Assembly: GCA_015063685.1 (NCBI GenBank)
Contig: SVTR01000027.1
Span: forward strand, 1-50,968
Source: Oscillospiraceae bacterium
GTDB lineage: Bacteria > Bacillota > Clostridia > Oscillospirales > CAG-272
Length of the DNA: 50,968 nt
Direction of reading: 5' to 3'
Shown here in pieces: positions 24,901 through 49,680 of the stretch; positions within the stretch are counted from its first letter, which is position 1, and the number at the start of each line of letters is the position of its first letter. The translations under genes and the position numbers were made by a program. The notes below the pieces were generated by a model, which worked only from the letters and a program-made list of their open reading frames with translations, did not search any database and was not told where the DNA came from.

Positions 24901-26142
24901 ATCGGCGATCGGGCCTTCAACGGATGCGAGCTTCTTGAAACGGTGGAGATCCCCTATGGCGTGCTCAGCATCGGAGAGAGTGCTTTCTCGGGTTGCGTAA
25001 GCCTTGAAGTGATGAACCTTCCTGAAAGCATAGTCAGCATTGGGGAGGCCGCCTTGGCCGACTGTGATAGCCTTTCGCACGTCACTCTACCAAGTGGTCT
25101 TACCGCCGTAGCGGACAGACTTTTCCAATATTGTGACAATCTGAAGAGTGTGAAGCTTCCCGATGATATCACGAGCATTGGCGAGTGGTCTTTCGAGGAG
25201 TGTATCAGCCTGACGAGCTTGGATTTGCCTGACGGTGTGACTCATATCGGTGATTTCGCCTTCAGAAATTGCAGCGCACTTACCGAGATAAGGATTCCCG
25301 ACGGCGTGACCGTTATCGGTATGGAAACCTTCTGGGGGTGTGACAGCTTGGAGTCTGTTGAGATCCCGGGGAGCGTGACTGCTATTGAGCAGGGAGCTTT
25401 TGAAGGGTGCATTTCCCTCCAAAGTATAGTGATCCCCGAGGGCGTAGGCTATATCAGCTACAGGGCTTTCGAAAATTGTGCCAATCTCCAAAGTATCACC
25501 CTGCCCGAAAGTCTTTGGCGCATTCTGGACGCGGCCTTTAACGAATGTGTGAGCCTTTCCGACGTCTACTATGCCGGTACGCCGTCTCAATGGAATGACA
25601 TGGAGATCTACGATGAAAACGAGCCTCTCCTGGATGCCACCGTTTATTTTGCCAAGTCCGATTCCATGGGAGTTCAAGGTCTTATTTACACCTCCAACGG
25701 TGACGGTACCTGTGTCGTCGGTGGGATGATCGCGTATCAATATGGAGATTTGATTATACCCACCGTGTCTCCCCTGGGAGACACGGTGACGGGGATTGCT
25801 GAGAATGGTTTCTTGAACAATGAATACCTTTTGAACGTAGAGATACCCGATAGCGTTACTTGCATTGGACAAGGCGCATTCGCCGGTTGTGCGATCCTCT
25901 CGAGCGTTTGTATCTCTGATGGTATTACCGAAATTGCAGATTTCGCTTTCAGCGGATGTATGGAGCTCATGTCAATTGAAATCCCTGCCAGTGTTACTCG
26001 AATCGGTGATTATGCCTTTGATCAATGCGATTCTCTTGCCCGTGTTTTCTATATGGGCACCGAATCCGGCTGGGGATGTATCGCTATTGGAGGTTGCAAT
26101 GAGTGCCTCTCCCTGGCAACTATCTACTTTTTGCTTCGGTGA
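12970..26142 (+). CDS. Giant surface lipoprotein: ETIPA linker, Cys/His repeats, BspA-type leucine-rich repeats
   Basis: 4390 aa, one unbroken frame. The ATG at 12970 is chosen: GGAGG ends 6 nt before it and a signal peptide follows at once (MKRMLRLLLPL...LLTSC), with lipobox L19-T-S-C22; an upstream TTG would mask it. Residues 58-152: nineteen pentapeptides, mostly ETIPA, a rigid acidic stalk. Residues 179-424: Cys-rich repeats (ATC-x-x-x-G ... C-x2-CG). Residues 425-1274: a unique region of unknown fold. Residues 1275-2730: more Cys/His repeats, including six units of exactly 78 residues from residue 1560. Residues 2735-4390: five modules of BspA/LRR_5 repeats (IPDSVTSIGxxAFxxC), each headed by a G-L-x-F/Y-x-x-NGDGTCYVSG motif and mostly closed by DVYYxG...W...LLxATIHF. 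No LPxTG, dockerin or S-layer domain is seen. Likely role: membrane-anchored adhesin or glycan/host-binding scaffold; the ligand is unknown. Confidence 0.9.
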   Translation: MKRMLRLLLPLTLIMLVLLTSCLDGDKPAESAPHTDTVAAQPGGSEYLPEVTAPSEPETIPAETIPAETIPAETIPAETIPAETIPGETIPAETIPAETIPAETIPAETIPAETIPAETIPTETIPVETIPTETIPVETIPTETIPAETVPGETQPMETEPAETETAPEETKPGETQPCTHDFGDWKTTKEATCQAEGEAIRTCADCGATEKDVLSKLNHAPETIPGKKPTCTIEGKTEGKRCSVCFEMIVVPGPIPPKGHQFEDGMCAVCGEACDHAFGGWSVTKPADCTEAGEETRTCASCRMVQSRTVSSLGHSGVVLEIVSATCTTDGYTVATCARCTETFYTGHEPAKGHHFSDYYTVTELTCTQDGLYRRDCDNCDVSEEIVETTNGHQYNPLSEDEEGTIIYVCVICQQQKKFKTAQEAHKEDEYLRDCSPTFTFDVMVDGTEEEVRSLLTLSDLYLKESGEGYAEYASVPYVLTSLGDGIWRVTPERAYEAGYTYEVILSGDASFVKYAGNTLTFTITDEASDERDFADDIIFVILPDEEDALYGYFDLWYDESADRLYFQMPTRGRFDDDHVGRLVCIGDYTSTEEILNEPGRECNFGKIEAIRESYDGSCILVLTCPTMGEIYEELDLYTQEKLQISEEDIPEEYEEYVVRSFREGDDLAEFAAEFSLAAERYATDNGLMTVGTADGSFMDNLKLTPDVSVKDNKIKAAITGKLSIDLKTKAGKKFGTLSASFVSECYISYDVTAQYEITKHWYGQKMERFDLDVAQTTGYDFKFNVTLESEYSLGELTPDTLKDVYMTQTSKLHLSSCHQLKNYDATTLTKVSPAELDELFRATEGGCLISECPICRPMTTYMQKRVYIVNNTDKSVHAYHSFCPARLSEDTKMTCELPRQADGYTYCAVCGPEKVLENTFKNYYFRNLDVTNWDETVSKVKEVLKQKGATQPKDTGRTLLKKPFILLAIVEIDLELDLTMHFKMEGSVEYHYSVQNTNRYGLRMNAQKTLTPYFEKGGTSSTSSLELLGKVEVKMGLEVSISVTLTGFHSFVHIGFSAEGGIYSNLTGIYHVDFKTAFGGEDERYDAIYLEVGLYYDMDFFYKLFFISGRNDVDEGKRPLLAVGYNKVYYGYGTNCEEKTVYGSSFSMDPYDTLNVLYFDVRSMTTGKDTLSIYGEEGKYRVVVTVCDENGNVSPHARIRNGRIVMDDQSPCEVDLYVVYRVIGVDDGIQTADELWRKSYSPQSVAYTMEDYVMCLHVVNHRYAPYVTVVEPKCNEEGLEVSYASCGCTDEQGELLKIEQAIPATGIHAYSDWEVTIPSTCTEKGLESRFATCNCKNEDGTPKVQTRVTAALDHDTVIVDAIPVTCTTDGYTEGRYCDRCKVVFLEIERIPAPGHRFEDEFTCHDRKCLNTHLKCTYVSYATTPHRLGDELIFDIPDHEGLFFTAKICLDCATMVDQSDNAFTHNWNWEEMIYVLPTCTKKGYVTLTCRDEGCGLEVTESLAMLPHTFVVEDMDKPGARKSPATCTASSVYYLSCIDCGGLSEDADEAFFYPHPPLGHQWEEAWSKDGKAGTHYHACENNCGTRMDEAFHVYDQTSRPILKSTATCYAPAYYYYTCICGHYERNGVAYAVGSPLEHEWSSVWSKDSDKGTHYHACENDCDERRDERVHVYDQMTDTVLKSPATCHEPAYYYYTCVCGYYEKDGETYAKGGPLEHEWSLDWSRDPVKGTHYHACRKGCGDRRDEALHVYDQMTDAVLKSPATCKAPAYYYYTCVCGHHSKYGETYAKGSPLEHDWSSAWTKDPVSGTHYHTCKNGCDARRDETPHTYDQATDVALKSPATCEEPAYYYYTCICGHYEKGGETYPKGAPLDHDWSSAWTKDLSKGTHYHACMNGCGERSGEARHVYDGTTDTALKSPATCYAPAYYHYTCICGHYEKNGETYAKGDPLEHVWSEEWSKDYVKDTHYHACENGCNERADEAAHTTETPICGSRSVCDVCCVAYGEVIYHQPDGEWHTDEASHWQICQRSTCGQRIKESRHSGGAAPTCRQGSECEICGYLYLEAVDHDPATTWTRTDGEHYRTCRFDCGYVFEDTRSNHVGGIATCTVGKLCVICGYEYTPPRDHDWDETGWLYDKTHHYRICVDCGAESTGEKHLYDQRIISSEYFYGEADCEHATRYYKSCVCGQGSSRDTDLFDVGEPLGHLWDDELHYNTVGHYYQCLRDGCDGKDFAIHTLDQKIVEDEYLKAVVTCTKPAEYYYVCVCGYCARTAYYQNGEPMGHALFEDSWEISENGMTHYHKCLNQGCDARFDEAPHSGVPATCTEAAVCDACGAEYQEPLGHRTDWEQGWLADPVTDTHYHACVRCLEHLDVTAHAYTKKNTDIRYRATKATCTEKATYYYSCECGLTDPLKATFENGNPKGHTYGWAYTEAEHYRQCTTEDCLYVDETTRKPHRGGTVTCEKPAVCTDCKYEYIAAWGHKMSTEWSADERKHWHACENPGCDYREDTRNHTFGAYVQTLPPTCAEEGREIRTCSVCLYEDGRTIEKLPHVWDDEKRYVKTEVDESRSTEETTYYIHYIMQPCMNCDEEREVNRTDSVLYNTFDTEFRAPTCTENGYLRIIPPTDAVNGEIFEETIPALGHDRVKGKVISPTCTEEGYTEYRCLRCGDIEKRELVPPTGHRGYVYTISATCTEEGYEVTACEVCGEELGRMTISPLGHDYGEDGYCRRCKEQKTSEGLEFVSNGDGTCYVSGSGTCKDLNLVIPAVSPEGDTVTSVGYRAFYSDALTSVTIPDSVKHIEGFAFAYCRSLKNIVFSENLRRINGWAFAYCEGLTSIEIPEKMISIDASSFSSCKNLTSITIHKTTKNIDSSAFSGCYAITDIYYQGSRIDWLTVTVGESNGSLLDATIHFAETEHGESQGLEFVSNGDGTCYVSGIGTCTDVDLVIPSMSPDGDIVTAIGEYALYQCSLEFRSIVIPDSVKRIEDYAIGHGMGQSKLEVVIISGGVTHIGQWAFVGHFNLKYVELPNTLISIGQHAFSSSKNLRSIELPDGLTEIQHYAFSYCESLQSMVIPDSVTSLGYSIFDGCESLESVTLGKGITEIGDYLFSNCTGLTSFVVPDFITYIGKNAFEDCYSLRNIVIPDSVTSIGNYVFWNCSGLESIVFPDSVTSIGDMLFMGCYSLKSITFPHIVTDMGDSQFDGCDKLETVVLPSNLTSISGLMFSNCRSLKALEIPASVTSIGDHAFDGCGSLESIVIPDQVIHIGIGAFYACHSLTEISIPHGVTTIEQHTFSNCTTLAVITIPDSVKQIDSYAFHNCSALTDVYYDGTERQWNFITIQPDNDDLLNATIHFLEPDTAGSQGLAYTPNGDGTCYVSGIGECTDTEIVIPRYSPEGDQVTGIAPGAFMECAQITDLVIPDGITTIGDAAFSYCVSLKRITIPASVETIGYAVLGMCSSLESVVIDPANPRFVFEGNCLIDLETKTLLSGFANSVIPADGSVAHIGMGAFIMCTELADLVIPEGVLTIGDMAFVYCISLTEISLPQSLQTIGTMAFSECENLVRADLPAGLTSIGAEAFSYCSALESVTIPGGVQSIAEYTFRECIGIKTLIISEGVTSIGKTAFYRCRALRSVSLPDSLTSIGASAFCDCYALTDIILSENLAYIGDSAFDGCTALTELVIPQNVISIGTGAFSGCKGLEKVTILASLTEIPEACFSGCGKLTQLVLPDNLTSIGDRSFSGTGLLEVVIPENVESIGERAFSSTPLLRIVIPKNVVSVGDMAFRNCSGLTELVISGSKTSFGERAFAGCESLSEVTFAPGMTDISLYMFADCTGLVSVALPDGLNLVGTGAFTGCTALTALTIPGSVKTINPAAFEGCESLADVYYGGDRHEWLNINICIENEPLLNATIHYGEIAGNTSVGLEYTSNGDGTCFVSGLGTCTDVSIVIPGVSPDGETVTGIGAYAFEGYAGILRVVIPEGVTSIGDRAFNGCELLETVEIPYGVLSIGESAFSGCVSLEVMNLPESIVSIGEAALADCDSLSHVTLPSGLTAVADRLFQYCDNLKSVKLPDDITSIGEWSFEECISLTSLDLPDGVTHIGDFAFRNCSALTEIRIPDGVTVIGMETFWGCDSLESVEIPGSVTAIEQGAFEGCISLQSIVIPEGVGYISYRAFENCANLQSITLPESLWRILDAAFNECVSLSDVYYAGTPSQWNDMEIYDENEPLLDATVYFAKSDSMGVQGLIYTSNGDGTCVVGGMIAYQYGDLIIPTVSPLGDTVTGIAENGFLNNEYLLNVEIPDSVTCIGQGAFAGCAILSSVCISDGITEIADFAFSGCMELMSIEIPASVTRIGDYAFDQCDSLARVFYMGTESGWGCIAIGGCNECLSLATIYFLLR
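13141..13425 (+). repeat. Nineteen tandem 15-bp repeats encoding ETIPx
   Basis: An uninterrupted run of GAGAC-(C/T/A)ATCCC-(T/C)GCG units, exactly 15 bp each, giving ETIPA, ETIPG, ETIPT and ETIPV. Because the unit is a multiple of three, slippage would change stalk length without breaking the frame. Confidence 0.95.
17647..19050 (+). repeat. Six tandem 234-bp repeats (78 aa) in the giant gene
   Basis: The H-x-W marker codons start at 17647, 17881, 18115, 18349, 18583 and 18817, exactly 234 bp apart. Each unit holds THYHACxxxC, HVYDQ, LKSPATC, PAYYYYTCxCG and ETYAKG. The Cys and His are positioned like metal ligands. The last unit degenerates after about 40 residues. Confidence 0.92.
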
Positions 26143-27656: not shown

Positions 27657-27816
27657 TAAATTGTTGTTTGCGTGGGCTTACTATGAACCCGTAGGGGCGA
27701 ACTGCGTTCGCCCGCTGTTCCCCAAAAGCCTTTGCTTATCAATATACTTTTTATTACGGGCGAACACAGTTCGCCCCTACGACCATGTTGCTCAGAAAAC
27801 CGTAAACAACAATTTA
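27657..27816. repeat. 160-bp M2-type palindromic element, copy 1
   Basis: Ends TAAATTGTTGTTT (27657-27669) and AAACAACAATTTA (27804-27816). Inside, GTAGGGGCGAAC...GTTCGCCCG and CGGGCGAACA...GTTCGCCCCTAC face each other. It matches the copy at 44640-44799 at 159 of 160 positions by eye. TA at both ends suggests a TA target duplication. Confidence 0.9.
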
Positions 27817-27904
27817 TCGTTGTACCGCCCCTCGCGGGATGTTCGTGGCACGGGATGCACTACCCCGAGCCAGAGCCCCACCGCAGGTGGTAAACAACAA
27901 TTTA
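27817..27904 (+). repeat. M3-type module, plus orientation
   Basis: About 88 bp ending CCACCGCAGGTGG-TAAACAACAATTTA; it contains CCCCGAGCCAGAGCCC. It mirrors the reversed M3 copies on the other side of the 160-bp element. From here to the promoter at 27985 nothing else is seen. Confidence 0.8.
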
Positions 27905-28058: not shown

Positions 28059-30065
28059 ATGGAACCCATCTTCAAGCTCGTCAGCGACTATACCCCCACG
28101 GGGGATCAGCCTGCCGCCATTGACGCATTGGTGGAGGGCATCAACCGCGGAGATCCCATGCAGACCCTCCTCGGTGTCACCGGCTCGGGCAAGACCTTTA
28201 CCATGGCCAACGTCATTGCCCGATGTAACCGTCCTGTCCTTATCCTGGAGCCCAACAAGATTCTGGCCGCCCAGCTCTGCACGGAATTTCGCGCCTTTTT
28301 TCCCGATGCGGCGGTGGAGTATTTTGTCTCTTATTACGACTATTACCAGCCCGAGGCTTACATCCCGGGCAAGGATATGTATATCGAAAAGGACGCCCTC
28401 ATCAACGACGAGATCGACCGCCTCCGCCACTCGGCTACCTCGGCCCTCTTTGAGCGCAGAGACGTGATCATCGTGGCCTCGGTGTCCTGCATCTACTCTC
28501 TCGGTGACCCCTCGGAGTACAAGGATCTGGTGATCCCCCTGCGCCCCGGCATGACCATGAGCCGAGAAGAATTTATCCGCAAACTGGTGTTCAACAGCTA
28601 CACCCGCAACGATATGCAGCTCGTCCGCGACAGCTTTCGCGTGCGCGGGGACACTGTAGAAGTGATTCCCGCTAACCAGTCCGAGACCGCCATCCGCGTG
28701 GAGTTTTTTGACGACGAGATCGACCGCCTGTCCGAGATCAACATCGTCACGGGGGAGCTGATCCGCCTGCTTTCCTATGCCGCCGTCTATCCCGCTACCC
28801 ACTACGCCGTGTCCGACGAAAAAAGGGAAGCGGCTCTTGCCGAGATCGTTCACGAGATGGAGGATCGGGAGGCATGGTTCAAATCTCAAAATAAATTGAT
28901 CGAAGCCCAACGCATCCGTGAGCGGGTGCTTTACGACCTGGAAATGCTCCGCGAGGTAGGCTTCTGCTCGGGCGTGGAGAACTATTCCCGTATTCTCACA
29001 GGTCGTGAGCCCGGGGCAACTCCCTATACTCTGCTGAACTATTTCCCTGACGACTACCTCATGTTCATCGACGAGTCCCACGTCACCGTCCCCCAGGTGC
29101 GAGGCATGAGCGGCGGCGACACGGCACGAAAAAAGAACCTTATCGACTACGGCTTCCGTCTTCCCTCGGCCTACGACAACCGTCCCCTGTACTTCGAGGA
29201 ATTTGAGGAGCGCATGGGGCAGACGGTGTTTGTCTCGGCCACCCCGGGAGACTATGAAAACGAGTATTCAAACAACACCGTGGAGCAGATCATCCGTCCC
29301 ACAGGACTCCTTGACCCCATCATCCACGTCCGTCCCATTGAGGGGCAGGTGGACGACCTCATGGGGGAGATCAAGATACGCACCGATAAGGGAGAGCGGG
29401 TGCTGGTCACCACGCTCACCAAGAAAATGGCCGAGGATCTCACTGACTATCTGGACGAAAACGGCATCAAGGTGCGCTACCTCCACCACGACGTAGATAC
29501 CTTGGAGCGAATGCAGATCGTCCGTGACCTGCGCCTTGGCGTGTTCGACGTGCTGGTGGGTATCAACCTGCTCCGCGAGGGACTTGACCTGCCCGAGGTC
29601 TCCCTCGTCGCTATCCTGGACGCTGACAAGGAGGGCTTCCTCCGCGCCGAGCGCTCCCTCATCCAGACCATCGGCCGCGCCGCGCGAAACGAGAACGGCA
29701 CCGTCATCATGTACGCCGACAAGATCACCCGCTCCATGGAGGTGGCCATCAGCGAGACCGCCCGCCGTCGCGCCATCCAGGACGCTTATAACAAGAAGCA
29801 TGGCATCACCCCCCATACCGTCATCAAGGATATCCGTGATGTCATTGAGATCGGCGCCAAGGAGGAGGACACCCGCCACAAGCGCAAGGGTACCGGCATT
29901 GACATGGTGGAGGACAAGTCCCCGAAGAAAAAGCTTTCTGCCAAGGAGCGTGAGGCCATGATCGAAAAGCTGACCCGTGAGATGAAGCAGGCCGCCAAAG
30001 AGCTGGAATTCGAAAAGGCGGCGTTTATCCGCGACGAGATCGCAAGGATCAGGAGCGGGAAGTAA
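28059..30065 (+). CDS. uvrB: Excinuclease ABC subunit B
   Basis: 668 aa, usual length, SD AAAGGAGG. UvrB verifies DNA damage handed over by UvrA and then recruits UvrC for dual incision in nucleotide excision repair. Walker A GVTGSGKT at residues 39-46; the damage-probing beta-hairpin [21 protein letters not shown]; the DEAD-like box FIDESHVT; helicase motifs [24 protein letters not shown] and QTIGRAARN; and the C-terminal UVR motif [22 protein letters not shown] that binds UvrC. It leads a run uvrB - PHP gene - membrane gene - uvrA. Confidence 0.98.
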
Positions 30066-30082
30066 ATTTCACCTATACTGTA

Positions 30083-30113
30083 AGATACGAAGATACGAGA
30101 TACGAAGATACGA
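30083..30113 (+). repeat. Short GATACGA direct repeats
   Basis: Four GATACGA units (30084-, 30092-, 30099-, 30107-), two of them preceded by AA. They lie between uvrB and the PHP gene, and resemble the GATACAA linker of the array at 50649-50752. Confidence 0.8.
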
Positions 30114-30146
30114 CATGAAAGTCCCCACAAAGAAAGGAGCATCACC

Positions 30147-31181
30147 ATGACTCACTACCTCATTCCTCAAAACGGCCGCTTCTACAAGGCCAACCTCCAC
30201 ACCCACACCATCATTTCCGATGGCTCCTATACCCCCGAGCAGATCAAGGAGCATTACAAGGCTCACGGCTACAGCGTCGTTGCCTATACCGATCACGACG
30301 TTATGATCGACCACTCTGATCTCAACGACGAGGATTTCCTTGCCATCACCTCCCACGAGGTGGAGACCAACGGCCCCTCCGTGGGGAACTCCTTCACGGC
30401 TACCCCCTGCTATCATCTGAATTTCTACGCTAAGAACCCCCACGAGACCAGCTACGTCTGCCCCAACCCCAACTACTGCTTCGCCAACGCGCCCAAGTAC
30501 GCCGCCGAGCAGGACTACTACAAGGGGGACTATGTCCGCCGCTACTCGGTGGAAGGGCAGAACGAAATGATCGCCGAGGCCAAAGCCAAGGGCTATCTCG
30601 TCAGCTACAACCACCCCGACTGGTCGCTCCAATCCTATCCCGACTACATAGGTTTGGAGGGTGTTACCGCTGTGGAGGTTTACAACACGGGCTGTGTGGT
30701 GGCAGGCTGGGTGTTGGACGAGGGCGACCACGTCCTTGACCACTTCCTCAAGGCGGGCAAGCGGGTCTATCCCGTGGCCACCGACGACAACCACGGTGCC
30801 CACGATATGTGCGGCGGCTGGGTACGCTTCAAGGCCCCCGAGCTGTCCTACGATGCCATCATGACAGCCTATGAGAAGGGGGATTTCTACGCCTCCTGGG
30901 GACCCGAATTTGAATCCTTATATCTTGAGGACGGTGTCCTTAAGATGGATTTTCCCGCCGACTCCCGCGTGGTCTCCGCCGAGATCCACACCGCCGTTCG
31001 TTGCTGTGACGTGCGGAGGGGCACCGACATGACCCACGCCGAGTTTGACATGAACCCCTTCATGGCCGAGATCAAGAATATCGGCTACCCCCTGGACCGC
31101 GCCTATTTCCGCGTGGTGCTGACCGATGCGGTCGGCAACCGCGCCCTGACCCGCGGCTATTTCCTGGATGAATTGGAGTAA
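30147..31181 (+). CDS. PHP-domain metal-dependent phosphoesterase
   Basis: 344 aa, AAAGGAG 10 nt upstream. PHP motifs: NLHTHTIISDG (motif I, H-x-H), YTDHDVMIDH (motif II), SYNHPDW (motif III), and the ATDDNHGAHD metal site near residue 215. These residues bind two or three metal ions and hydrolyse phosphoester bonds. The C-terminal part (PEFESLYLEDGVLKMDFPADS) is a beta domain common in PHP proteins found with sugar genes. Substrate unknown: a nucleotide or a sugar phosphate. It sits 81 nt after uvrB and ends 5 nt before the next start codon, so it is probably in the uvr transcript. Confidence 0.88.
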   Translation: MTHYLIPQNGRFYKANLHTHTIISDGSYTPEQIKEHYKAHGYSVVAYTDHDVMIDHSDLNDEDFLAITSHEVETNGPSVGNSFTATPCYHLNFYAKNPHETSYVCPNPNYCFANAPKYAAEQDYYKGDYVRRYSVEGQNEMIAEAKAKGYLVSYNHPDWSLQSYPDYIGLEGVTAVEVYNTGCVVAGWVLDEGDHVLDHFLKAGKRVYPVATDDNHGAHDMCGGWVRFKAPELSYDAIMTAYEKGDFYASWGPEFESLYLEDGVLKMDFPADSRVVSAEIHTAVRCCDVRRGTDMTHAEFDMNPFMAEIKNIGYPLDRAYFRVVLTDAVGNRALTRGYFLDELE

Positions 31182-31185
31182 GATT

Positions 31186-31668
31186 ATGAGTAAAAAGCAA
31201 AAGAACCTCACCCGCATTCCCGTCATTGACTGGCTATCCTTTTGGCTGACCCTGGGCCTTGTGGTCATCCTGATGGGTGCCATGGTGGCCATATATTATC
31301 TCGGCTGGGACGGTCATATCATCGGAAACGTGGTGACCATCATCATGGCGCTCTTTTTCTGCATGCTGTTTGTGGATCTGGGCTTCCTTCTGTCGGCTTG
31401 CGTCACCGTAGGTGAAGGCGCTGTCAATATGGGAAAGGACGAGCAGGGAAATCTCATGGTCTTCCACGCCGATAAGGTGGAGCGCATCGAGGTGCGTGAT
31501 CTGGCCTGCCACATCCTGCCTGAGGATCGTAAGGTATACAAGCGCGTCAAGCTCACCTTTGTCATGGAGAGCGGACGTGTCCACGAGCGCAAGCTTAACC
31601 GCCTGACCGAAAAACAGCTTGCCCGTATCCGCGAAGCGGTGGCGGCAGAGGCTAAGAAATCAACCTAA
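31186..31668 (+). CDS. Unknown small membrane protein
   Basis: 160 aa from the ATG at 31186; GGAG at 31175 overlaps the end of the PHP gene, so translation is probably coupled. Two TM helices ([26 protein letters not shown] and [26 protein letters not shown]) precede a small beta domain ([34 protein letters not shown]) and a basic helical tail ([21 protein letters not shown]). No family recognised. It lies 17 nt before uvrA. Confidence 0.8.
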
Positions 31669-31685
31669 AAGGAACCCATATACCT

Positions 31686-34514
31686 ATGCAAAAATCCATT
31701 GTAATCAAGGGCGCGCGCGTCCACAACCTCAAAAATATCGACGTGGAGATCCCCCGTGACAAGCTGGTGGTCATGACGGGACTGTCCGGCTCGGGCAAGT
31801 CCTCCCTGGCCTTTGACACCGTCTACGCCGAGGGACACCGAAGATTCGTGGAGTCCCTGTCCTCCTACGCCCGTATGTTCCTGGGACAGATGGACAAGCC
31901 CGACGTGGACATGATCGAGGGTCTGTCCCCCGCCATCTCCATTGATCAGAAGACCACCTCCAAGAACCCCCGCTCCACCGTGGGTACGGTCACCGAAATT
32001 TACGATTACCTCCGTCTGCTCTACGCCCGTGTGGGTACGCCCCATTGTCCCGTATGCGGCAAGGAGATCAAGCAACAGACCGTGGACCAGATCATCGACA
32101 AGATCCAGACCCTCCCCGAGGGCACCCGCTTCATGGTGCTGTCCCCCGTGGTGCGTGCCCAGAAGGGTATGCACGAAAAGGTGCTGGCCGACGCCAAGAA
32201 GAAGGGCTACGTCCGTGTCCGCGTGGACGGCAGCATCTACGATCTCTCAGAGGAGATCAAGCTGGATAAAAACAAAAAGCATACCATCGAGATTGTGGTG
32301 GACCGTCTGGTCATGCGGGAGGGCATCCGCGCCCGTCTGTCCGACTCGGTGGAGAACGCCCTGGCCGCCGCCGACGGATATCTCATGGTGCTGACCGTCC
32401 CCCGTGATGGAGAAATCGAGCAGGAGATGGTCTTCTCTCAGCACTACGCCTGCGAGGAGCACGGTATCTCCTTCGGCGAGCTGGAGCCTCGGATGTTCTC
32501 TTTCAACAACCCCGTGGGTGCCTGCCCTCATTGCGCGGGCATCGGTGATATGCAACGGGTCGCCGTCCATAAGCTCATCCCCCACCCCGAAATGACTCTG
32601 TGGGAGGGTGCCATCCAGGTCAACGGCTTCAAGACCCTTGACCCCCAAAGCTGGAACGGCCCCCTCTTTGAGGCTGTGGGCAAAAAGCACGGCTTCCGCA
32701 TGGATCAGCCCATCAGCACCTTCACCAAAGAAGCCTTGAACGTCCTGTATTATGGCTCGGGAGAGGACACCTACACCATCACCCGCCATTTCGGTGACCG
32801 CGCCACCCACCAGACAGTCAAATTTGAGGGCGTGGTGGGTATCATGGAAAACCGCATGCGCCAGGGCGGTTGGGGCACAGACAGCTACGAGGAATTCGTG
32901 GAGGACGCGCCCTGTCCCGAGTGCCACGGCAAACGCCTCAACCCCATGGTGCTGGCCGTTACCGTGGGTGGCAAAAACATCGACGATTTTTGCGGTCTTT
33001 CGGTGAAAGAAGCCTTTGACTTCATCGTGAGTCTCCGACTGGAAGGCAGTGAAGCGGTCATCGCCAAAGAGATCGTCAAGGAGATCAAGGCGCGGCTGGG
33101 CTTCCTTGTCAGCGTAGGTCTTGATTACCTGACCCTCTCCCGCAAGGCAGGTACTCTGTCGGGCGGCGAGGCACAGCGCATCCGTCTGGCCACCCAGATC
33201 GGCTCGGCTTTGGTGGGCGTGCTCTATATTCTGGACGAGCCCTCCATCGGTCTGCATCAGAGGGACAACACCAAGCTTATCTCCACCCTCAAAAAGCTCC
33301 GTGATCTTGGCAACACCGTCATCGTGGTGGAGCATGACGAGGAGACCATGGAGGAGTCTGACTATATCATTGACATCGGCCCGGGGGCTGGTATCCACGG
33401 CGGCCGCGTGGTTGCCGCGGGGACGCCCGCCGAGGTGGGGAAGGATCCCAACTCAATCACGGGCGCGTACCTGTCGGGGCGCAAGTCCATCGACGTGCCC
33501 GAAACGAGACGGGCAGGGAACGGACACACCCTGACGGTCTATGGTGCCGCCGAGCATAATCTGCGTCACATCCGGGTGGATATCCCCTTGGGTAAGTTTG
33601 TCTGCGTGACGGGCGTGTCGGGCTCGGGCAAGTCCTCTTTGGTCAACGGTATCATCTACCCCGTATTGGCCAAGCAGTTGAACCGTGCCTCCACCTATCC
33701 CGGTCATCACGACCGCATGGAGGGCGTGGAGCACCTGGATAAGGTCATTGCCATTGATCAGTCTCCCATCGGACGCACCCCCCGCTCTAACCCGGCCACC
33801 TATACGTCGCTTTTCAACGACATCCGCGATCTGTTCGCCAAGACCCGCGATGCCAACGCCAAGGGCTTTGGCCCAGGGCGGTTCTCCTTCAACGTCAAAG
33901 GCGGCCGCTGTGAGGCCTGCGAGGGCGACGGCGTCAAGAAGATCGAAATGCACTTTTTGCCCGACGTGTACGTCACCTGCGACGTGTGCAAGGGCAAGCG
34001 ATACAACCGTGACACCCTGGATGTCAAGTACAACGGCAAGAATATTTTTGACGTACTGGACATGACCGTGGAGGAAGGTCTGACCTTCTTCGAAGGCCTG
34101 CCTAAGATCCGCAGAAAGCTCCAGACCCTCTACGACGTGGGTCTCGGATACGTCAAGATCGGTCAGTCATCCACTACCTTATCGGGCGGTGAGGCACAAC
34201 GTGTCAAGCTGGCGGCAGAGCTGGCTAAGCGGGACACGGGCAAGACCATCTATATCCTGGACGAGCCCACCACGGGTCTGCACACCGACGACGTTGCCCG
34301 CCTGCTGGAGGTGCTGCAACGCTTGGTGGACGCGGGCAATACCGTCCTCGTCATCGAGCACAACCTGGACGTGATTAAGTGTGCCGACCATATCATCGAC
34401 CTGGGTCCCGAAGGGGGCAGCGGTGGCGGTACGGTGGTGGCCACGGGTACGCCCGAGGAGGTGGCAGAGGTAGCCGGATCTTATACGGGGCAGTTCTTGA
34501 AGAAGAAACTGTAA
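31686..34514 (+). CDS. uvrA: Excinuclease ABC subunit A
   Basis: 942 aa, normal length; SD AAAGGAA. UvrA is the dimeric ATPase that first recognises bulky DNA damage. Two ABC cassettes: Walker A GLSGSGKS (32-39) and GVSGSGKS (643-650), with signatures [15 protein letters not shown] and [15 protein letters not shown] and Walker [12 protein letters not shown] and [11 protein letters not shown]. Zinc modules: [13 protein letters not shown] and CEACEGDG ... [10 protein letters not shown]. All elements are intact. It ends the uvrB-PHP-membrane protein-uvrA run. Confidence 0.98.
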
Positions 34515-39612: not shown

Positions 39613-39688
39613 GCTGGTATAGCTCAGTCGGTAGAGCACGTCATTGGTAATGACGAGGTCATCAGTTCGAATCTGATTACCAGCTCCA
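39613..39688 (+). tRNA. tRNA-Thr (anticodon GGU), copy 1
   Basis: 76 nt with encoded CCA. Acceptor GCTGGTA pairs with TACCAGC; discriminator T. Anticodon arm CGTCA-TTGGTAA-TGACG, anticodon GGT. T-arm GTTCGAATC. Confidence 0.96.
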
Positions 39689-39704
39689 AAGACGCTCAGG
39701 ATAT

Positions 39705-39780
39705 GCTGGTATAGCTCAGTCGGTAGAGCACGTCATTGGTAATGACGAGGTCATCAGTTCGAATCTGATTACCAGCTCCA
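39705..39780 (+). tRNA. tRNA-Thr (anticodon GGU), copy 2
   Basis: Identical in sequence to the copy at 39613-39688 and 16 nt downstream of it; both should come from one transcript. Confidence 0.96.
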
Positions 39781-42732: not shown

Positions 42733-42761
42733 TTGACAATCGACCGGATGTATGGTAAAAT
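42733..42761 (+). promoter_or_regulatory. Promoter of the TerB cassette
   Basis: TTGACA (42733-42738), 17-nt spacer, TAAAAT (42756-42761). It is the only clear promoter in front of the three cassette genes. Confidence 0.8.
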
Positions 42762-42797
42762 AATATATTACCAACCTACAGAGGAAAGGAGGATACC

Positions 42798-44642
42798 ATG
42801 AGCCGGGATGAAAAGCAAAACACACGGGAGGAGATCAACCGCAGAGACCGGGATCTGGACGAATTCTGGGATATTGACCGCCTTTTACCCCAGCAGAAAA
42901 GCGCTCCGAAGTATACGCCTGTCACGACACGGAAAACGCCGGAGGCCATAGAGATCGAGGTGCCTTCCCCGAAGGAACCGAAGAAGCCCGTGATCAGAAC
43001 CGTGACTGTCCCGCCAACAGGCTCGTCTCCCTTGTCATTTTCCCATGAGGAAAAGCCTGTGGCCGATGATATCCCCCCGGATAGAAGGGAATCTGTCGTT
43101 GGAGAGAAGGCGGGCCCGATACCCGTACTGCTGTGTGAGTATGCGCCGGACAATCTTCTTTTGCACAATGTAAAGGTGTATGAATGGCATTCCAATTACC
43201 ATTATTTTGACCAGTTCATCAAGGATGCCGTGGCCTATGCCCGGGTCGGCGGCAAGGAGACCAAGGCAGAGCCCTTCTTCTCCTACTTCCCTCAATATGC
43301 CCAACTGAACCGCCGCCAACGTGCCTGGTATTTGTACTGGCGCGATCAGGTGCGTGCGGAGATTTACCCCCAAACAGACTATGCCTACATTCTTCTGTAT
43401 CTTTTCGAGCTGATCAATCTTCCTGTCGAGGAAGACATGGCCGAGGAGCACAGGGATCTTATGGCAAAGGTTTGGATGGCCTATCGCAAAACCTACCCTC
43501 AACTGGATCACTACGCCTGCGAGTGGCTTTGCGATTATTGTCTGATCCATCGCCTGAGTGCCCCCATTCTTCATCTTTTGCCCGCCTTGGGTCAGATCAT
43601 ATCCATGGCGCGACTGAAGGAGTTTTATCTTTCAGCCATGATTTCGGTAGGAAATGACAAGGTCAACGTAGCGTCCGCTAAGGTGCTGCTATCCTACTCC
43701 TGCCAGTATGATTATCGAAAGAGCAAATTCTACAGCGGCGAGCATAAGGCGTTGTTTGACGACGTGATCCCCCGCGCCTTGGCGGAAGTCTTTCCCATGC
43801 TGATCGCCAGAGGACAGCCCGTTGCCGGATTACATGGGGGACAAAGCTATATGCAGGATTCTGTGGTGAGCCGCGACGCTTTCGTTGGCGCCTTGTGCGC
43901 GTATAGCTGTAAGCGTCGGATCGAGTTATCCTATGCTTCCTTTTCACGCTCCCATGACCTTCGCTTTTTGGTGGGAGATATGGTCAAGCATGTGGAAAAT
44001 CGCATCCGCGCCGCTATCCTGGTGCGTTCCAAGCTGACCACCCATTTTCTCACTGTCCCCCTGCGTCAGGCATTGGATACCTGGCTGGATGATCATCTTC
44101 CATCTCCCGAGGTAGCCAAGAGACGGGCAGAGATGAACAAGCCCCGCCCCGAGTACGAGGCTCTGTATGATCTCCCCCATACCGCAGTCTCCATTGAATC
44201 CGCCGATGCCATCGAGCAATCCTCTTGGGAGACTACCAAAATTTTGGTGGAGGCCTTTGTCGACGAGGAGCTGAGTCCCGTGCCCGAAGAAGGGATGGAT
44301 GATATCACTTCTGTACCCATATCTTCTCCCCCGTTGGAGGAATCTGCTCCGGCTGCCGAAACCGCACCGTCCTGTGAGTCGCCCGAGGATGTGGATTCCC
44401 CCCTTCTCCAAGCTCTCGGTGATCGTGCCGAATTTGTCCTCGCTGTCCTTCGCCGTGACAGGGCAGGGCAGAAGGCCTATTGCGCGGTCCATAAAAAGCT
44501 ACCCGACGCCGTGGTGGATGAGATCAATGACCTGACTGTGGAGCATGAGATTTTCGATATGATTATCGAAGAGAATGGTTGCGGCGGCTATCAGATTATT
44601 GAAGATTATCGGGACATGATCAAAGAAATATTGAACGTGTAA
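42798..44642 (+). CDS. TerB-N / TerB-C domain protein
   Basis: 614 aa; SD AAAGGAGG 6 nt before the ATG. The first 105 residues are polar and disordered-looking. TerB-N spans about 111-315: NLLLHNVKVYEWHSNYHYFDQF, FFSYFPQYAQLNRRQRAWYLYWRDQVR, YAYILLYLFELINLP. TerB-C spans about 370-612 and ends EHEIFDMIIEENGCGGYQIIEDYRDMIKEIL. The tellurite-resistance TerB core between them is not evident. Anantharaman, Iyer and Aravind linked TerB-N/C proteins with helicases and ATPases in predicted DNA-processing systems. Here the next two genes are exactly such enzymes. The stop codon TAA is formed by the first bases of a 160-bp repeat. Confidence 0.85.
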   Translation: MSRDEKQNTREEINRRDRDLDEFWDIDRLLPQQKSAPKYTPVTTRKTPEAIEIEVPSPKEPKKPVIRTVTVPPTGSSPLSFSHEEKPVADDIPPDRRESVVGEKAGPIPVLLCEYAPDNLLLHNVKVYEWHSNYHYFDQFIKDAVAYARVGGKETKAEPFFSYFPQYAQLNRRQRAWYLYWRDQVRAEIYPQTDYAYILLYLFELINLPVEEDMAEEHRDLMAKVWMAYRKTYPQLDHYACEWLCDYCLIHRLSAPILHLLPALGQIISMARLKEFYLSAMISVGNDKVNVASAKVLLSYSCQYDYRKSKFYSGEHKALFDDVIPRALAEVFPMLIARGQPVAGLHGGQSYMQDSVVSRDAFVGALCAYSCKRRIELSYASFSRSHDLRFLVGDMVKHVENRIRAAILVRSKLTTHFLTVPLRQALDTWLDDHLPSPEVAKRRAEMNKPRPEYEALYDLPHTAVSIESADAIEQSSWETTKILVEAFVDEELSPVPEEGMDDITSVPISSPPLEESAPAAETAPSCESPEDVDSPLLQALGDRAEFVLAVLRRDRAGQKAYCAVHKKLPDAVVDEINDLTVEHEIFDMIIEENGCGGYQIIEDYRDMIKEILNV

Positions 44643-44799
44643 ATTGTTGTTTGCGTGGGCTTACTATGAACCCGTAGGGGCGAACTGCGTTCGCCCGCCG
44701 TTCCCCAAAAGCCTTTGCTTATCAATATACTTTTTATTACGGGCGAACACAGTTCGCCCCTACGACCATGTTGCTCAGAAAACCGTAAACAACAATTTA
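44640..44799. repeat. 160-bp M2-type palindromic element, copy 2
   Basis: Ends TAAATTGTTGTTT (44640-44652) and AAACAACAATTTA (44787-44799), core GTAGGGGCGAAC ... GTTCGCCCCTAC. Differs from the copy at 27657 at one base (C for T at 44699). It begins inside the stop codon of the TerB gene. Confidence 0.92.
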
Positions 44800-44991
44800 C
44801 CTGCCTAACTACCCATCGCGGGATGTAGTTCGCATGGGTTGAATAACCCCGAGCCAGAGCCCCACCGCAGGTGGTAAACAACAATTTACCTGCCTAACTA
44901 CCCATCGCGGGATGCAGTTCGCATGGGTTAAACATCCCCGGCGTTGGCAGGCGGCACGGCCGCCCCCACCGCAGGTGGTAAAAAACATTTA
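44800..44991 (+). repeat. Two tandem M3-type modules
   Basis: 44800-44888 and 44889-44991 both begin CCTGCCTAACTACCCATCGC and share CGCATGGGTT and CCACCGCAGGTGG-TAAA. The second has GGCGGCACGGCCGCC in place of the GAGCCAGAGCC segment and a degenerate end AAAAACATTTA. Confidence 0.88.
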
Positions 44992-45002
44992 CCGTAAACC
45001 AA

Positions 45003-45038
45003 AGAAAGGATCTTCGCGTTGCGAAGCCGGAATAAACC
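45003..45038 (+). promoter_or_regulatory. Ribosome binding site separated from start by a hairpin
   Basis: AAAGGA at 45006-45011 lies about 27 nt before the ATG at 45039. Between them CTTCGC-gtt-GCGAAG (45012-45026) can fold and shorten the distance. No closer strong site is seen; GGAA at 45028 is weak. Confidence 0.5.
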
Positions 45039-46457
45039 ATGAGTGATATGAATAACCAATCTTCCCGTGAGGTTGCTATCCCCCGCCGCGTGCTGGGATC
45101 TCTGATCTCCTCTACCATGGCGGGTGTCGTCCCCCGGGCGGGAGCACCCTATATCGCCATCGGCAGAAAGGACGAGATCGCCGCGTTTCTCTCGGATCTG
45201 GAGCAGATCAACGAGGGCGGCGGTGCCATGCGCTTCCTCATCGGCCGCTACGGCAGCGGTAAGAGCTTTCTGATCCAGCTCATCCGAGGCTACGCCCTGG
45301 AGCGGGATTTCATCACCGCCGATGCCGACCTGTCCCCCGAACGCCGTCTCTACGGCAGTAACGGATCCGGCGTGGCCACCTACCGCGAGCTGATGAAAAA
45401 CCTGGCCTCTAAATCCTCTCCCGACGGCGGCGCGCTCCCCAAGCTCATCGCCCGCTGGATCAATACCCTGCAGGACGAGCTGATGGAGGAGGGTCTGTCC
45501 CCCGATGCCCCCGAATTTACCACCGCCCTGGGACGTAAGATCAACGCCACCATGCGAGAGCTTGAATTTTTAGTGGGCGGCTTCGACTTCGCCCGTGTCA
45601 TCACAGCCTACTACACCGCCTACCTGTCGGGAGACGAGAACGCCCAGCTCCGCATGAGTGCCTGCCTCCGCTGGCTCCGCGGTGAGTACGCCACCAAAGG
45701 CGAGGCGCGGCGAGATCTCGGTATCCCCGTGTCGGTCATCATTGACGATAACAACTGGTACGATTTCCTCAAGCTTTGGGCGGCGCTCGTCAAGCATCTC
45801 GGGTACCGAGGCCTGGTGGTGTTCATCGACGAATGTGTGAACCTCTATAAGATCACCCACCGCGTCAGCCGAGAGAACAACTACGAGAAGATCCTCGCCA
45901 TGTTCAACGATACCCTTCAAGGCCGCGCTCCGGGATTGGGCATCGTCTTTGGCGGCACCCCCCAGTTTTTGGAGGATCCTCGACGCGGACTCTTCAGCTA
46001 CGAGGCTCTCCGCTCCCGTCTCTGCGACAGCCGCTTTGCCATCGAAGGCGTCAAAAACCTCATCGGCCCCGTCATCCGCCTCCGCCGTCTGTCTGACGAC
46101 GAGCTGTTGGCTCTCGTCCGCCGTATGACCCAGCTCTACGGCAAATACTACAGCTGGGCGCCCCGCATCACCGACGAACAGCAGGTGGATTTCCTCAACC
46201 ATTGTCTCGCCCGCGCGGGTGCTGACAGCATGATCACACCCCGCGAGATGCTCCGCGACTATATGACCGTCCTCTCCACCCTCATGCAGAATCCCGAGGT
46301 CACCTTTGCCCACGTCATGGGGAAGGTCACCCTGAAGCCCGCCGACGGCGACGATGACGACGATCCTTGGGCACCGTCCAAGGACGAAAAGGCCGCAAGA
46401 GGGATGGATACAGAGGGGGAGAAGAAAAAGTTTGACCTTGAGGATCTGGATTTTTGA
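45039..46457 (+). CDS. BrxD-like ATP-binding protein (DUF2791)
   Basis: 472 aa. P-loop ATPase of the DUF2791/BrxD group: Walker A GRYGSGKS at residues 69-76, Walker B LVVFIDE at 259-265 (Asp264-Glu265), a sensor-like IVFGGTPQFLEDPRRG, and RLRRLSDDELLALVRRMTQLYG in the C-terminal helical part, which is followed by TPREMLRDYMTVL and an acidic tail (DGDDDDDP). BrxD is known from type 2 BREX (Pgl) phage-defence loci, where it accompanies BrxHI. Here it sits between a TerB-N/C gene and an Lhr-like helicase gene. Start: ATG at 45039; a second in-frame ATG at 45048 is possible. It is separated from its neighbours by repeats only. Confidence 0.87.
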   Translation: MSDMNNQSSREVAIPRRVLGSLISSTMAGVVPRAGAPYIAIGRKDEIAAFLSDLEQINEGGGAMRFLIGRYGSGKSFLIQLIRGYALERDFITADADLSPERRLYGSNGSGVATYRELMKNLASKSSPDGGALPKLIARWINTLQDELMEEGLSPDAPEFTTALGRKINATMRELEFLVGGFDFARVITAYYTAYLSGDENAQLRMSACLRWLRGEYATKGEARRDLGIPVSVIIDDNNWYDFLKLWAALVKHLGYRGLVVFIDECVNLYKITHRVSRENNYEKILAMFNDTLQGRAPGLGIVFGGTPQFLEDPRRGLFSYEALRSRLCDSRFAIEGVKNLIGPVIRLRRLSDDELLALVRRMTQLYGKYYSWAPRITDEQQVDFLNHCLARAGADSMITPREMLRDYMTVLSTLMQNPEVTFAHVMGKVTLKPADGDDDDDPWAPSKDEKAARGMDTEGEKKKFDLEDLDF

Positions 46458-46464
46458 GGAGAGA

Positions 46465-46633
46465 TAAATTGTTGTTTACGGGCGTATGACCAACATGGCC
46501 GTAGGGGAGGCCCTATGTGGCCTCCCGCCCAAAAGATTGTTGACCAACAAGGGTTTTGACGAGTTTAGACGACGGGCGACCACACAGGGTCGCCCCTACG
46601 GTGTAAAATATTAAATCCGCAAACAACAATTTA
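46465..46633. repeat. 169-bp M2-type element with a different core
   Basis: Same ends (46465-46477 and 46621-46633) but the core is CCGTAGGGGAGGCC...GGCCTCCCGCCC and GGGCGACC...GGTCGCCCCTACGG. It starts 8 nt after the ATPase stop codon. Confidence 0.85.
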
Positions 46634-46723
46634 CCTGTCCAACGCCCCATCGTGTGATATGGTAGGCACAGGATGCACTCCCCCCGAGCCAGAGCCCCAC
46701 CGCAGGTGGTAAACAACAATTTT
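46634..46723 (+). repeat. M3-type module
   Basis: Begins CCTGTCCAACGCCCCATCG and ends CCACCGCAGGTGG-TAAACAACAATTT. The helicase ribosome site starts 20 nt later. Confidence 0.8.
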
Positions 46724-46757
46724 TATGATTACTTCATCCTCAGGAAAGGAGCCCCAC

Positions 46758-49091
46758 ATGACCGAAGCCGATCGCATCTTTTCCCGCTTCCCCGAATTTA
46801 TCCGTGAATATATCTTCACCCACCGCTGGGAGTCTTTGCGGGCGGTGCAGGTAGCGGCGGCGAGGACTCTGTTCCTCACCGACCACCACCTCCTGCTCAC
46901 CTCGTCTACCGCCAGCGGCAAGACCGAGGCGGCCTTTTTCCCCATCCTGTCGGAGCTGTACCAAAGTCCGCCCGAGAGCGTGGGTGCCTTGTATATCGCC
47001 CCCTTGAAATCCCTCATCAACGACCAGTTTGGCCGCATGGAGGAGCTGCTTGATCTCACGGGCATTCCCGTGACGAGATGGCACGGAGACGTGGCGCAAT
47101 CCCATAAGAAAAAACTGCTGACCACCCCCCGCGGCATCCTCCAGATCACCCCCGAATCCCTGGAGGCCATGCTGATCAATCGCTCCAACGATATGCTCCG
47201 CCTCTTTGGCGACCTGCGCTATATCGTCATCGACGAGATCCATACCCTCACGGGCACCGACCGAGGCAACCAGATCATCTGCCAACTGGCGAGACTCGGC
47301 CACCTCATCGGCCGTAACCCCCGCCGCGTGGGTCTGTCGGCTACCATCGGTGACCCCACCTCTGCCGCCGAATGGCTGGCAGGCGGCACCGATATCCCCG
47401 TAGACGTCCCCACCTTCGACGAGGGCAAGATCCGCTGGCGGCTGGGCCTGGAGCATTTCTATATCCAAAACACCAAGACCGATCAGGCCTCCCAGCCCCA
47501 CGATCTCGAAGAGCAGGGAAGCGAGGACGATGCCGACATGACCCCCGAGGAGCTTGCCGCCCGTGATGCTGCCCTCAGCGACGTGGCACAGGCCATGGCC
47601 GACGGTGCGCTCCCTCATGTGCAATCTAACGCCCTGGACGCAGGCTACGAATATATGTACGATTGCGTCAAGAGCAAAAAATCTCTGGTCTTTGCCAACT
47701 CCCGCGAGGAGACCGAATACCTCTGCGCCACCTTCCGTCAGATCGCCAAGAACCGTGGCGAGCCCGATGTGTTCCTCATCCACCACGGCAATCTGTCCGC
47801 ATCTCTGCGCGAGGAGGCCGAGGCCAAGATGAAGGACGAGGAGATGTTCGCCGTCACCTGCGCCACCGTCACCATGGAGCTGGGCATCGACATCGGACGG
47901 TTGGAGCGTGTCCTGCAAAGCCAAGCCCCAAACGCCGTCACCAGCTTTCTGCAACGGCTGGGCCGCTCAGGCAGACGGGGCGAGCCCCCCGAGATGATGA
48001 TGGTCTTCCGCGAGGAGGATCCCCTGCCCAATACCCCTCTGCCCCAACTGATCCCGTGGGAGTTGCTACGGGGCATCGCTATCATCCAACTTTACATTGA
48101 GGAACGCTTCATCGAGCCGCCGTGGCGCAAAAAAATGCCCATGAGTCTTTTGTTCCACCAGACCTTGTCCATCCTGGCCGCCTCGGGCGAGCTGACCCCC
48201 AAACGATTGGCCGAGCGTGTCTTATCTCTGCCGCCCTTTGCGCAGATCACCAAGGAGGATTACCGCACCCTTATGGTGTCCATGTTAGAGCATGATTTCC
48301 TGGAGATGACCGAGGAAAAGGGGCTGATCGTTGGCATGGCGGGAGAAAGACTTCTCAAGAGCTTCAAGTTCTACGCCGTGTTCAAGGACAGCGAGGATTT
48401 CACCGTCCGCGCCGGATCGGACGAGATTGGCACCATCACCACCCCGCCCCCTGTGGGCGACCGCTTTGCCCTGGCGGGCCGCGTGTGGGAGGTGGAGGAA
48501 TTGGACATCCAGCGCAAGCTGATCTATGTCAAGCAGGTGGACGGCAAAATGGAGGTCTCCTGGCCGGGCGACTTCGGAGAGATCCACACGAGGATTGTTC
48601 AGCGGATGCGCCGTATTTTGGAAGAAGATACGGTCTACCCTTACCTCAAGCCCAACGCGCAGAAGCGCATTGAGGTGGCTCGCCACGTGGCTCGCAACAC
48701 GGGGATGTTGGAGCATTCGTTGGTTTCCCTCGGAGGCTACTCCTGGTGTCTGTTTCCCTGGCTGGGAACCCGCTCCTTCCGCACGTTGAGAAAGTTCCTT
48801 GCCCGTAACGCGGGGATGTTCAAGATCAGCCATATTGAGTTTGAAGGCTGTTATTACATGACCTTCCGTATGGAGCGGGGCAACGATTACGATCTTATCT
48901 CCCATCTTCATGGCATCGCCTCCACCGACGGCATTGATTGCCGCGCCCTGGTGGAAAGCGGGGAGCTGCCCCTCTTTGAAAAGTACGACGAGCATATCCC
49001 CGGGGAGCTGCTCCGTGCCGCCTACGCCGCCGACAGACTCCGCGCGGACGAGGCAGAGGCAAGGCTTCAGGAGATCCTCGGCGAATATTGA
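46758..49091 (+). CDS. Lhr/BrxHI-like DEAD/DEAH-box helicase
   Basis: 777 aa from the ATG at 46758 (AAAGGAG 7 nt upstream). Superfamily 2 helicase: motif I TASGKT (51-56), Ia APLKSLINDQFGRMEE, motif II DEIH (159-162), motif III GLSATIGD, motif V ATVTMELGIDIGRLERV, motif VI QRLGRSGRRG (399-408). The C-terminal 350 residues are Lhr-like (winged helix and a beta domain; VGDRFALAGRVWEVEELD, SLGGYSWCLFPWLGTRSFRTL). Lhr-type helicases move 3'-5' on DNA. BrxHI of type 2 BREX belongs to this group. It ends the cassette. In the 5' region an acidic insertion (EEQGSEDDADMTPEELAARD) separates the two RecA domains. Confidence 0.9.
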   Translation: MTEADRIFSRFPEFIREYIFTHRWESLRAVQVAAARTLFLTDHHLLLTSSTASGKTEAAFFPILSELYQSPPESVGALYIAPLKSLINDQFGRMEELLDLTGIPVTRWHGDVAQSHKKKLLTTPRGILQITPESLEAMLINRSNDMLRLFGDLRYIVIDEIHTLTGTDRGNQIICQLARLGHLIGRNPRRVGLSATIGDPTSAAEWLAGGTDIPVDVPTFDEGKIRWRLGLEHFYIQNTKTDQASQPHDLEEQGSEDDADMTPEELAARDAALSDVAQAMADGALPHVQSNALDAGYEYMYDCVKSKKSLVFANSREETEYLCATFRQIAKNRGEPDVFLIHHGNLSASLREEAEAKMKDEEMFAVTCATVTMELGIDIGRLERVLQSQAPNAVTSFLQRLGRSGRRGEPPEMMMVFREEDPLPNTPLPQLIPWELLRGIAIIQLYIEERFIEPPWRKKMPMSLLFHQTLSILAASGELTPKRLAERVLSLPPFAQITKEDYRTLMVSMLEHDFLEMTEEKGLIVGMAGERLLKSFKFYAVFKDSEDFTVRAGSDEIGTITTPPPVGDRFALAGRVWEVEELDIQRKLIYVKQVDGKMEVSWPGDFGEIHTRIVQRMRRILEEDTVYPYLKPNAQKRIEVARHVARNTGMLEHSLVSLGGYSWCLFPWLGTRSFRTLRKFLARNAGMFKISHIEFEGCYYMTFRMERGNDYDLISHLHGIASTDGIDCRALVESGELPLFEKYDEHIPGELLRAAYAADRLRADEAEARLQEILGEY

Positions 49092-49100
49092 TATTTTAAC

Positions 49101-49261
49101 GGGCATCTCTAAAAACTCATCGCACGTCGATATGACGGTGCTTTTTCCGTCATACGTCACAAAATTCTTTCGCATAGGGTCAACTATGCGTGCAGATTTT
49201 TGTTTAGTCTGACGAAAAAATCTCTCGCCTCTCGCCGCACGCTGAGTATTTAGAGATGCCC
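49101..49261 (-). mobile_element. 161-bp MITE, copy 3, inverted
   Basis: GGGCATCTCTAAAAACTC ... GAGTATTTAGAGATGCCC, flanked by TAAC at 49097-49100 and 49262-49265. It lies in the opposite orientation to copies 1 and 2, between the helicase stop codon and its terminator. Confidence 0.93.
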
Positions 49262-49268
49262 TAACGTT

Positions 49269-49296
49269 AAACGCTCCTCCTATGGGGGAGCGTTTT
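49269..49296 (+). terminator. Intrinsic terminator of the helicase gene
   Basis: AACGCTCCTCC-tat-GGGGGAGCGTT followed by TTG. It would lie about 16 nt after the stop codon if the MITE and one TAAC were removed. Confidence 0.8.
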
Positions 49297-49390: not shown

Positions 49391-49593
49391 TAAATTGTTG
49401 TTTAGCGTTGTTGTGCCCCGCCTTGAGACAGTCATCCTGAGCGAGGGCGATGCCCGAGTCGAAGGATCCCACAGGAAGCAAAACCTTTTTATGACAATGG
49501 TTTTTTACAGGTATAAAGAGATCCTTCGGCGCAGCCAGCGGCCTTGCTCAGGATGACCGCGTTGGTCAGTAAACGCCCATAAACAACAATTTA
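49391..49593. repeat. 203-bp M2-type element with a third kind of core
   Basis: Ends TAAATTGTTGTTT (49391-49403) and AAACAACAATTTA (49581-49593). The core is GTCATCCTGAGC ... GAAGGATCC and GATCCTTCGG ... GCTCAGGATGAC, unrelated to the GTAGGGG cores of the other copies. Confidence 0.88.
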
Positions 49594-49680
49594 TCTAATC
49601 AACTGCCCATCGCGGGATGTAGTTCGCATGGGTTGAATAACCCCGAGCCAGAGCCGCCCCGCAGGGGCAACAACAATTTA
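49594..49680 (+). repeat. M3-type module, plus orientation
   Basis: Contains CCCATCGCGGGATG, CGCATGGGTTGAATAACCCC and ends GCCCCGCAGGGGC-AACAACAATTTA; the terminal hairpin has been replaced by GCCCC/GGGGC. Confidence 0.8.

Follow-up and report, generated by a model that had tools for sequence, protein, structure and literature searches.

A Shango gene trio mostly kept or lost together, though often dispersed, in a family of uncultured Clostridia

The 50,968-nucleotide stretch of DNA analysed here (the window) is contig SVTR01000027.1 of an Oscillospiraceae bacterium (assembly GCA_015063685.1; GTDB order Oscillospirales, CAG-272), whose genome is assembled in 57 contigs and is ~93% complete. 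Three long open reading frames (ORFs) in the ORF listing of the window, all on the + strand, span positions 42798-49091 (Table 1), and the original prediction that consecutive genes on one strand encode a TerB-N/C protein, a BrxD-like ATPase and an Lhr/BrxHI-like helicase is borne out by the ORFs and by Pfam. The first product matches TerB_N (7.1e-21; 75.3 bits, cut-off 25) and, under the cut-off of 26.3 bits, TerB_C (2.8e-4; 21.6 bits); the second matches BrxC_BrxD (3.2e-154), and the third DEAD (5.9e-27) and Helicase_C (7.3e-15). In the PADLOC library, which was used without curated cut-offs, the best profile for each gene is that of Shango (SngA 1.2e-48, SngB 1.8e-165, SngC 4.4e-242), and judging by these matches the trio is almost certainly Shango (SngABC). 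Shango reportedly features in Millman et al. 2022. The available portion of Johnson et al. 2023 (PMC10250203) describes it as an anti-phage system from a Pseudomonas aeruginosa hotspot (PA14), with protection that on plates was modest and in liquid was for the most part strong; it is also reported in E. coli. The trio is thus a known and published system and not the undescribed one it had been taken for; what is unusual is how the window's family carries the Shango genes.

SngB and SngC are relatives of BrxD and BrxHI of the bacteriophage exclusion (BREX) systems. Within PADLOC, SngB scores 549 bits with its own profile vs 161 bits with that of BrxD, and SngC scores 804 bits vs 418 bits with BrxHI; SngB also misses the NCBIfam cut-off for BrxD (161.9 vs 350 bits). 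The sole BrxC/BrxD-family match in the ~93% complete genome is sngB itself, so that there is no second such gene and no BrxC, and the idea of a self-contained, BREX-related defence candidate with the TerB protein as third partner holds up. BREX families were likewise absent among the other window ORFs scanned (nine with Pfam, nine with PADLOC, three in both), while for PglX, PglZ and PglW no genome-wide search was made. In the predicted model of SngA, the middle of the protein is helical and the C-terminal domain is a candidate winged helix. The catalytic motifs of the SngB ATPase (Walker A GRYGSGKS, Walker B DE) and of the superfamily 2 (SF2) helicase SngC are intact, and the motif residues are conserved across homologues, in a count that left out G334 and G410, two distant members of the phylum-wide set that may not be Shango. 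In none of the three proteins was a nuclease domain recognised. SngC has a weak Lhr winged-helix match and reaches the cut-off of none of the NCBIfam helicase families shown (best 25 vs 27); its nearest solved structures are YprA, which acts in repair, and two "ATP-dependent DNA helicase" entries, which we take to be Lhr proteins.

Across 196 genomes of the family, all three genes are present in 129, none in 55 and only part of the set in 12, with individual counts of 138 for SngB, 134 for SngC and 136 for TerB_N. The partial genomes comprise six with SngA and SngB, three with SngB and SngC, one with SngA only and two with SngC only, and nine of the 12 are less than 90% complete. The other three are 94-96% complete and look like natural partial systems: SngC alone in G030 (L170) and its congener G173, and SngA-SngB without SngC in G049 (L053). 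A smaller set of 97 genomes (the window's own and 96 relatives), counted without weak SngC matches (E of 7e-7 or worse), gave 47 with all three genes, 44 with none and six with part. The closest named relative is a Clostridia assembly from roe-deer caecum, RGIG3848. Phylum-wide, SngB was found in just 25 of 398 genomes, that of the window included, vs 138 of 196 in the family.

The strong co-retention is only partly matched by physical linkage. In 125 of 135 family genomes, SngA and SngB share a contig and lie at most 8 kb apart. SngB and SngC are linked in 77 of 132, in every case within 6 kb, and in the other 55 they are on different contigs; in the 33 of these 55 whose DNA 3' of SngB was examined, the contig continues without SngC in 27 and reaches its edge in six. 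This arrangement is largely genus-specific. Among the 35 genera with at least two scored species, SngB and SngC are always linked in 16, always unlinked in 13 and mixed in six, so that 29 are uniform, vs a mean of 9.3 and a maximum of 19 in 20,000 shuffles. In genus g17, SngA is unlinked from SngB in all three species where it was found, and in g85 all three genes are on different contigs in three of four species. The check named with the original prediction, whether the three families are neighbours in other genomes, has a mixed outcome: co-retention is strong, but in 13 of the 35 genera no scored species has SngB and SngC on the same contig. Elsewhere in the phylum, SngC is immediately 3' of SngB in 20 of 20 fetched loci (of 24 matches), and likewise on a Paenibacillus plasmid; SngA was recognised in 14 of the 20, the other six having an unrecognised ORF before SngB. 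That the trio is mostly kept or lost together even where its genes are apart suggests that it is likely to be one machine. We found no earlier report of a dispersed, family-core Shango arrangement in the literature searched.

The dispersed genes often have core genes as neighbours. AlaS is encoded directly 3' of SngA-SngB in nine genomes, one of them partial; truB and nrnA are 5' of Sng genes in four genomes, with rbfA as well in three; hrcA and dnaK are 3' in one; and rny with a presumably YmdB-like gene follows SngB directly in two genomes of another family. Checked with one example each, alaS, rny, rbfA, truB, ribF, hrcA, dnaK and uvrA score over their NCBIfam cut-offs, whereas the nrnA and YmdB-like examples fall under theirs. 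In addition, uvrA is immediately 3' of SngC in G033 and G051 and immediately 3' of SngB in G176 (L065, L067, L219). A separate housekeeping context for each gene had been named as a finding that would count against the trio as a system, and such a context is seen in part, with SngA-SngB beside alaS, rny-ymdB or rbfA-nrnA-truB in several relatives.

In order to ask how the genes are inherited, their distances were compared with those of RpoB as a single housekeeping yardstick. The RpoB sample comprised 70 genomes out of the 97; 60 of these, G000 among them, were picked so that both the family and the carriers of Sng genes were represented, and six of the rest entered purely as outgroup. In G011 and G014, RpoB had no match. 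Fragments were left out of the trees (G005, G011 and G053 for SngB; G001 and G052 for SngC; G006 and G041 for RpoB). In the SngB and SngC trees, most family sequences (the core type) and a few from other families of the order cluster together, apart from most phylum-wide sequences. Among core-type family members, distances correlate with those of RpoB (r of 0.69 for SngB and 0.71 for SngC) and with each other (0.83), and outside the window's genus these values drop to 0.44, 0.54 and 0.68, respectively. In the genomes where SngC is split from SngA-SngB, the SngC-RpoB correlation is 0.92 and, after correction for RpoB, that between SngB and SngC vanishes (n=10), pointing to plain shared descent there. 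Together, the high prevalence and the core-gene neighbours suggest that inheritance is mainly vertical in much of the family.

SngA behaves differently from its partners, with pairwise distances ~2.6 times those of SngB. For example, between the window (42798-49091) and the corresponding locus of G004 (L034, 5454-11630), a genome with 9% listed contamination and two rpoB matches, SngB is 97% and SngC 96% identical and SngA 67%, with the SngA divergence spread evenly along the protein. From these comparisons, SngA may have been swapped or may be under strong diversifying selection, and its fast change is in keeping with a contact surface engaged in an arms race.

We consider it somewhat probable that the trio, mostly kept or lost together though its genes lie apart, forms one complex whose parts can come from separate loci, and that within it SngA would direct the loading of SngC onto target DNA by SngB. 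The loader-helicase part of this mechanism is proposed by analogy and more tentatively. SngB would form a ring or clamp of the ORC/Cdc6 kind and put the translocase SngC onto DNA, cf. BrxD and BrxHI of type 2 BREX, where BrxD has been proposed as the loader of BrxHI in the part of PMC12839542 available; SngA, with its helical scaffold and candidate winged-helix C-terminus, would be the sensor or adaptor recognising an invader or a stalled fork; and the task of SngC would be to unwind or strip the DNA of the phage, blocking its replication. The available text of a 2026 review (PMC12926258) lists the mechanism of Shango among those given as unknown. Phage defence in this host we infer from Shango elsewhere. 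That Shango is family-core, dispersed and trans-acting has close to an even chance in our judgement. The fuller picture is a possibility falling a little short of even: in a single large family of uncultured Clostridia, Shango would no longer travel as a defence cassette but would serve, near-core and dispersed over the chromosome, as an immune or genome-guard machine. SngA-SngB would be anchored by genes such as alaS, rny or hrcA and SngC at another site, with assembly in trans and loss only of the whole unit.

Several observations weigh against this picture and speak for an ordinary mobile Shango cassette that is often acquired, its prevalence reflecting repeated transfer and its scattered sites independent insertions. 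The RpoB tree implies 14 presence/absence changes of Sng genes, and the misplacement of G003 in the tree amounts to within-genus transfer, neither of which fits purely vertical descent. G016 and G018 carry other Sng types that group with distant lineages. The Sng flanks are unshared even within the window's genus. In the window, a beta-lactamase-family protein, two tRNA-Thr genes, a PrmC-like methyltransferase and the D-Ala-D-Ala ligase gene ddl are encoded 5' of the trio; prmC-ddl is kept in 11 of 11 congeners, and no Sng gene follows ddl in any of the eight congeners with at least 2.5 kb of DNA beyond it. Such an unconserved position implies that relocation or transfer continues, and within the window's genus Shango does also move. 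Moreover, BrxD- and SngB-like ATPase genes, counted together, occur on 692 of 72,556 plasmid records, and 542 of the 692 are typed as conjugative. As an account of the whole family, however, a mobile cassette is rather unlikely: SngB and SngC are unlinked in a genus-consistent manner yet co-retained, which is not how a cassette behaves, most core-type sequences form one group that partly tracks RpoB, and several relatives have core-gene neighbours, such as the alaS found directly 3' in nine genomes.

The family version might instead have been taken over for genome maintenance, i.e. helicase-driven repair or the clearing of stalled forks, with phage defence no longer its main task. The near-core prevalence, the core-gene neighbours, the uvrA genes directly after SngC or SngB in three genomes and the structures nearest to SngC are all in line with this. 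On the other hand, all three genes are missing from 55 of the 196 genomes, which means that the family can do without them, SngA changes fast, and Shango elsewhere is anti-phage (PMC10250203, in the portion available), making a maintenance role improbable. A type 2 BREX remnant retaining only BrxD and BrxHI, to which SngB and SngC are indeed related, is very improbable, since the Shango profiles fit far better, the genome has no BrxC, and the SngB-SngC pair is adjacent in all 20 phylum-wide loci, 14 of them with a recognised SngA.

The original prediction also assigned the trio one promoter and one terminator. The promoter-like site has a near-consensus match and the hairpin after sngC a strong fold; against this, the hairpin has a poor T tail, the numbers of such sites in the region are near chance (six promoter-like sites found vs 4.8 expected, and ten terminator-like sites vs 7.2), and the intergenic gaps are filled with repeats. 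A single sngA-sngB-sngC transcript is plausible. The longest sngC ORF starts at 46725 (788 aa), but the ATG at 46758, behind AGGAAAGGAG, is the better start, and translation probably begins there, as judged from the good ribosome-binding site. The gaps, of 396 nt between sngA and sngB and 267 nt between sngB and the first ATG of sngC, are both occupied by copies of a dispersed repeat of 89 nt with ends TAAATTGTTGT and ACAACAATTTA and 72 matches genome-wide; it could be a MITE- or REP-like element (a miniature inverted-repeat transposable element or a repetitive extragenic palindrome). One copy overlaps the sngA stop codon, and further copies are at 27657-27904.

Table 1. Features of the Shango locus and its repeats, in window coordinates.
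Feature	Position	Strand	Basis
Promoter-like TTGACA-17-TAAAAT, TG before second hexamer	42733..42761	+	11/12 consensus bases
sngA, TerB_N/TerB_C protein, 614 aa	42798..44642	+	Pfam, PADLOC, predicted model
Repeat copies, sngA-sngB gap, TAAATTGTTGT / ACAACAATTTA ends	44640..44990		repeat comparison
sngB, BrxC/D-family AAA+ ATPase, 472 aa	45039..46457	+	Pfam, PADLOC, motifs
Repeat copies, sngB-sngC gap	46465..46721		repeat comparison
sngC, SF2 helicase, Lhr/BrxHI-like, 777 aa (probable start)	46758..49091	+	Pfam, PADLOC, motifs, ribosome-binding site
Terminator-like hairpin	49269..49295	+	-22.8 kcal/mol for folded stretch, z -4.4
Repeat copies, downstream of sngC	49391..49680		repeat comparison

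The 3' neighbour of the trio encodes a xylose-isomerase-like protein. The tandem tRNA-Thr (GGT) genes, at 39613-39780 and 3 kb 5' of sngA, are a possible integration site; no integrase was seen among the neighbouring window ORFs scanned, and PADLOC found no other defence genes at 1e-10 in nine of the ~28 other window ORFs. The window also holds uvrB and uvrA (28059-34514) and a 4415-aa ORF (12895-26142, + strand) that begins like a lipoprotein and carries ETIPA-type repeats in a row close to its N-terminus, by appearance a giant surface protein.

Multi-gene defence systems are usually scored as adjacent genes, and a dispersed but co-retained Shango would therefore be missed by island- or linkage-based searches. 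If true, our interpretation would make this a clear case of an immune system that has become core across an entire bacterial family. Because the split genomes part SngA-SngB from SngC naturally, what each of the three proteins does can be tested; the likely recognition subunit of Shango is SngA, given how fast it changes.

Compared with known systems, SngA shares TerB_N and TerB_C domains with tellurite-resistance TerB proteins but lacks a match to the TerB core domain (PF05099) at E up to 1, as does SngA of the Paenibacillus plasmid; PF05099 is nevertheless the Pfam family given for Shango in the available part of PMC10952713. With Lhr/YprA-type DNA helicases, SngC has in common the SF2 core and the weak Lhr winged-helix match; it differs in staying under the NCBIfam helicase cut-offs, and PMC12278908, in the portion available, groups it with BrxHI, DruE and DpdJ in a defence clade that may be a separate one. 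The SngB-SngC ATPase-helicase dyad is homologous to BrxD-BrxHI of type 2 BREX, and the loader-helicase logic is likely to be the same, but this genome has no BrxC and its SngB is under the BrxD cut-off. The closest likeness is to Shango itself, with the same three families in the same A-B-C order, on one strand and adjacent in the window. The differences are the weak TerB_C of SngA, the long, repeat-filled gaps and, above all, genes that are near-core in the window's family and non-adjacent in many of its genera.
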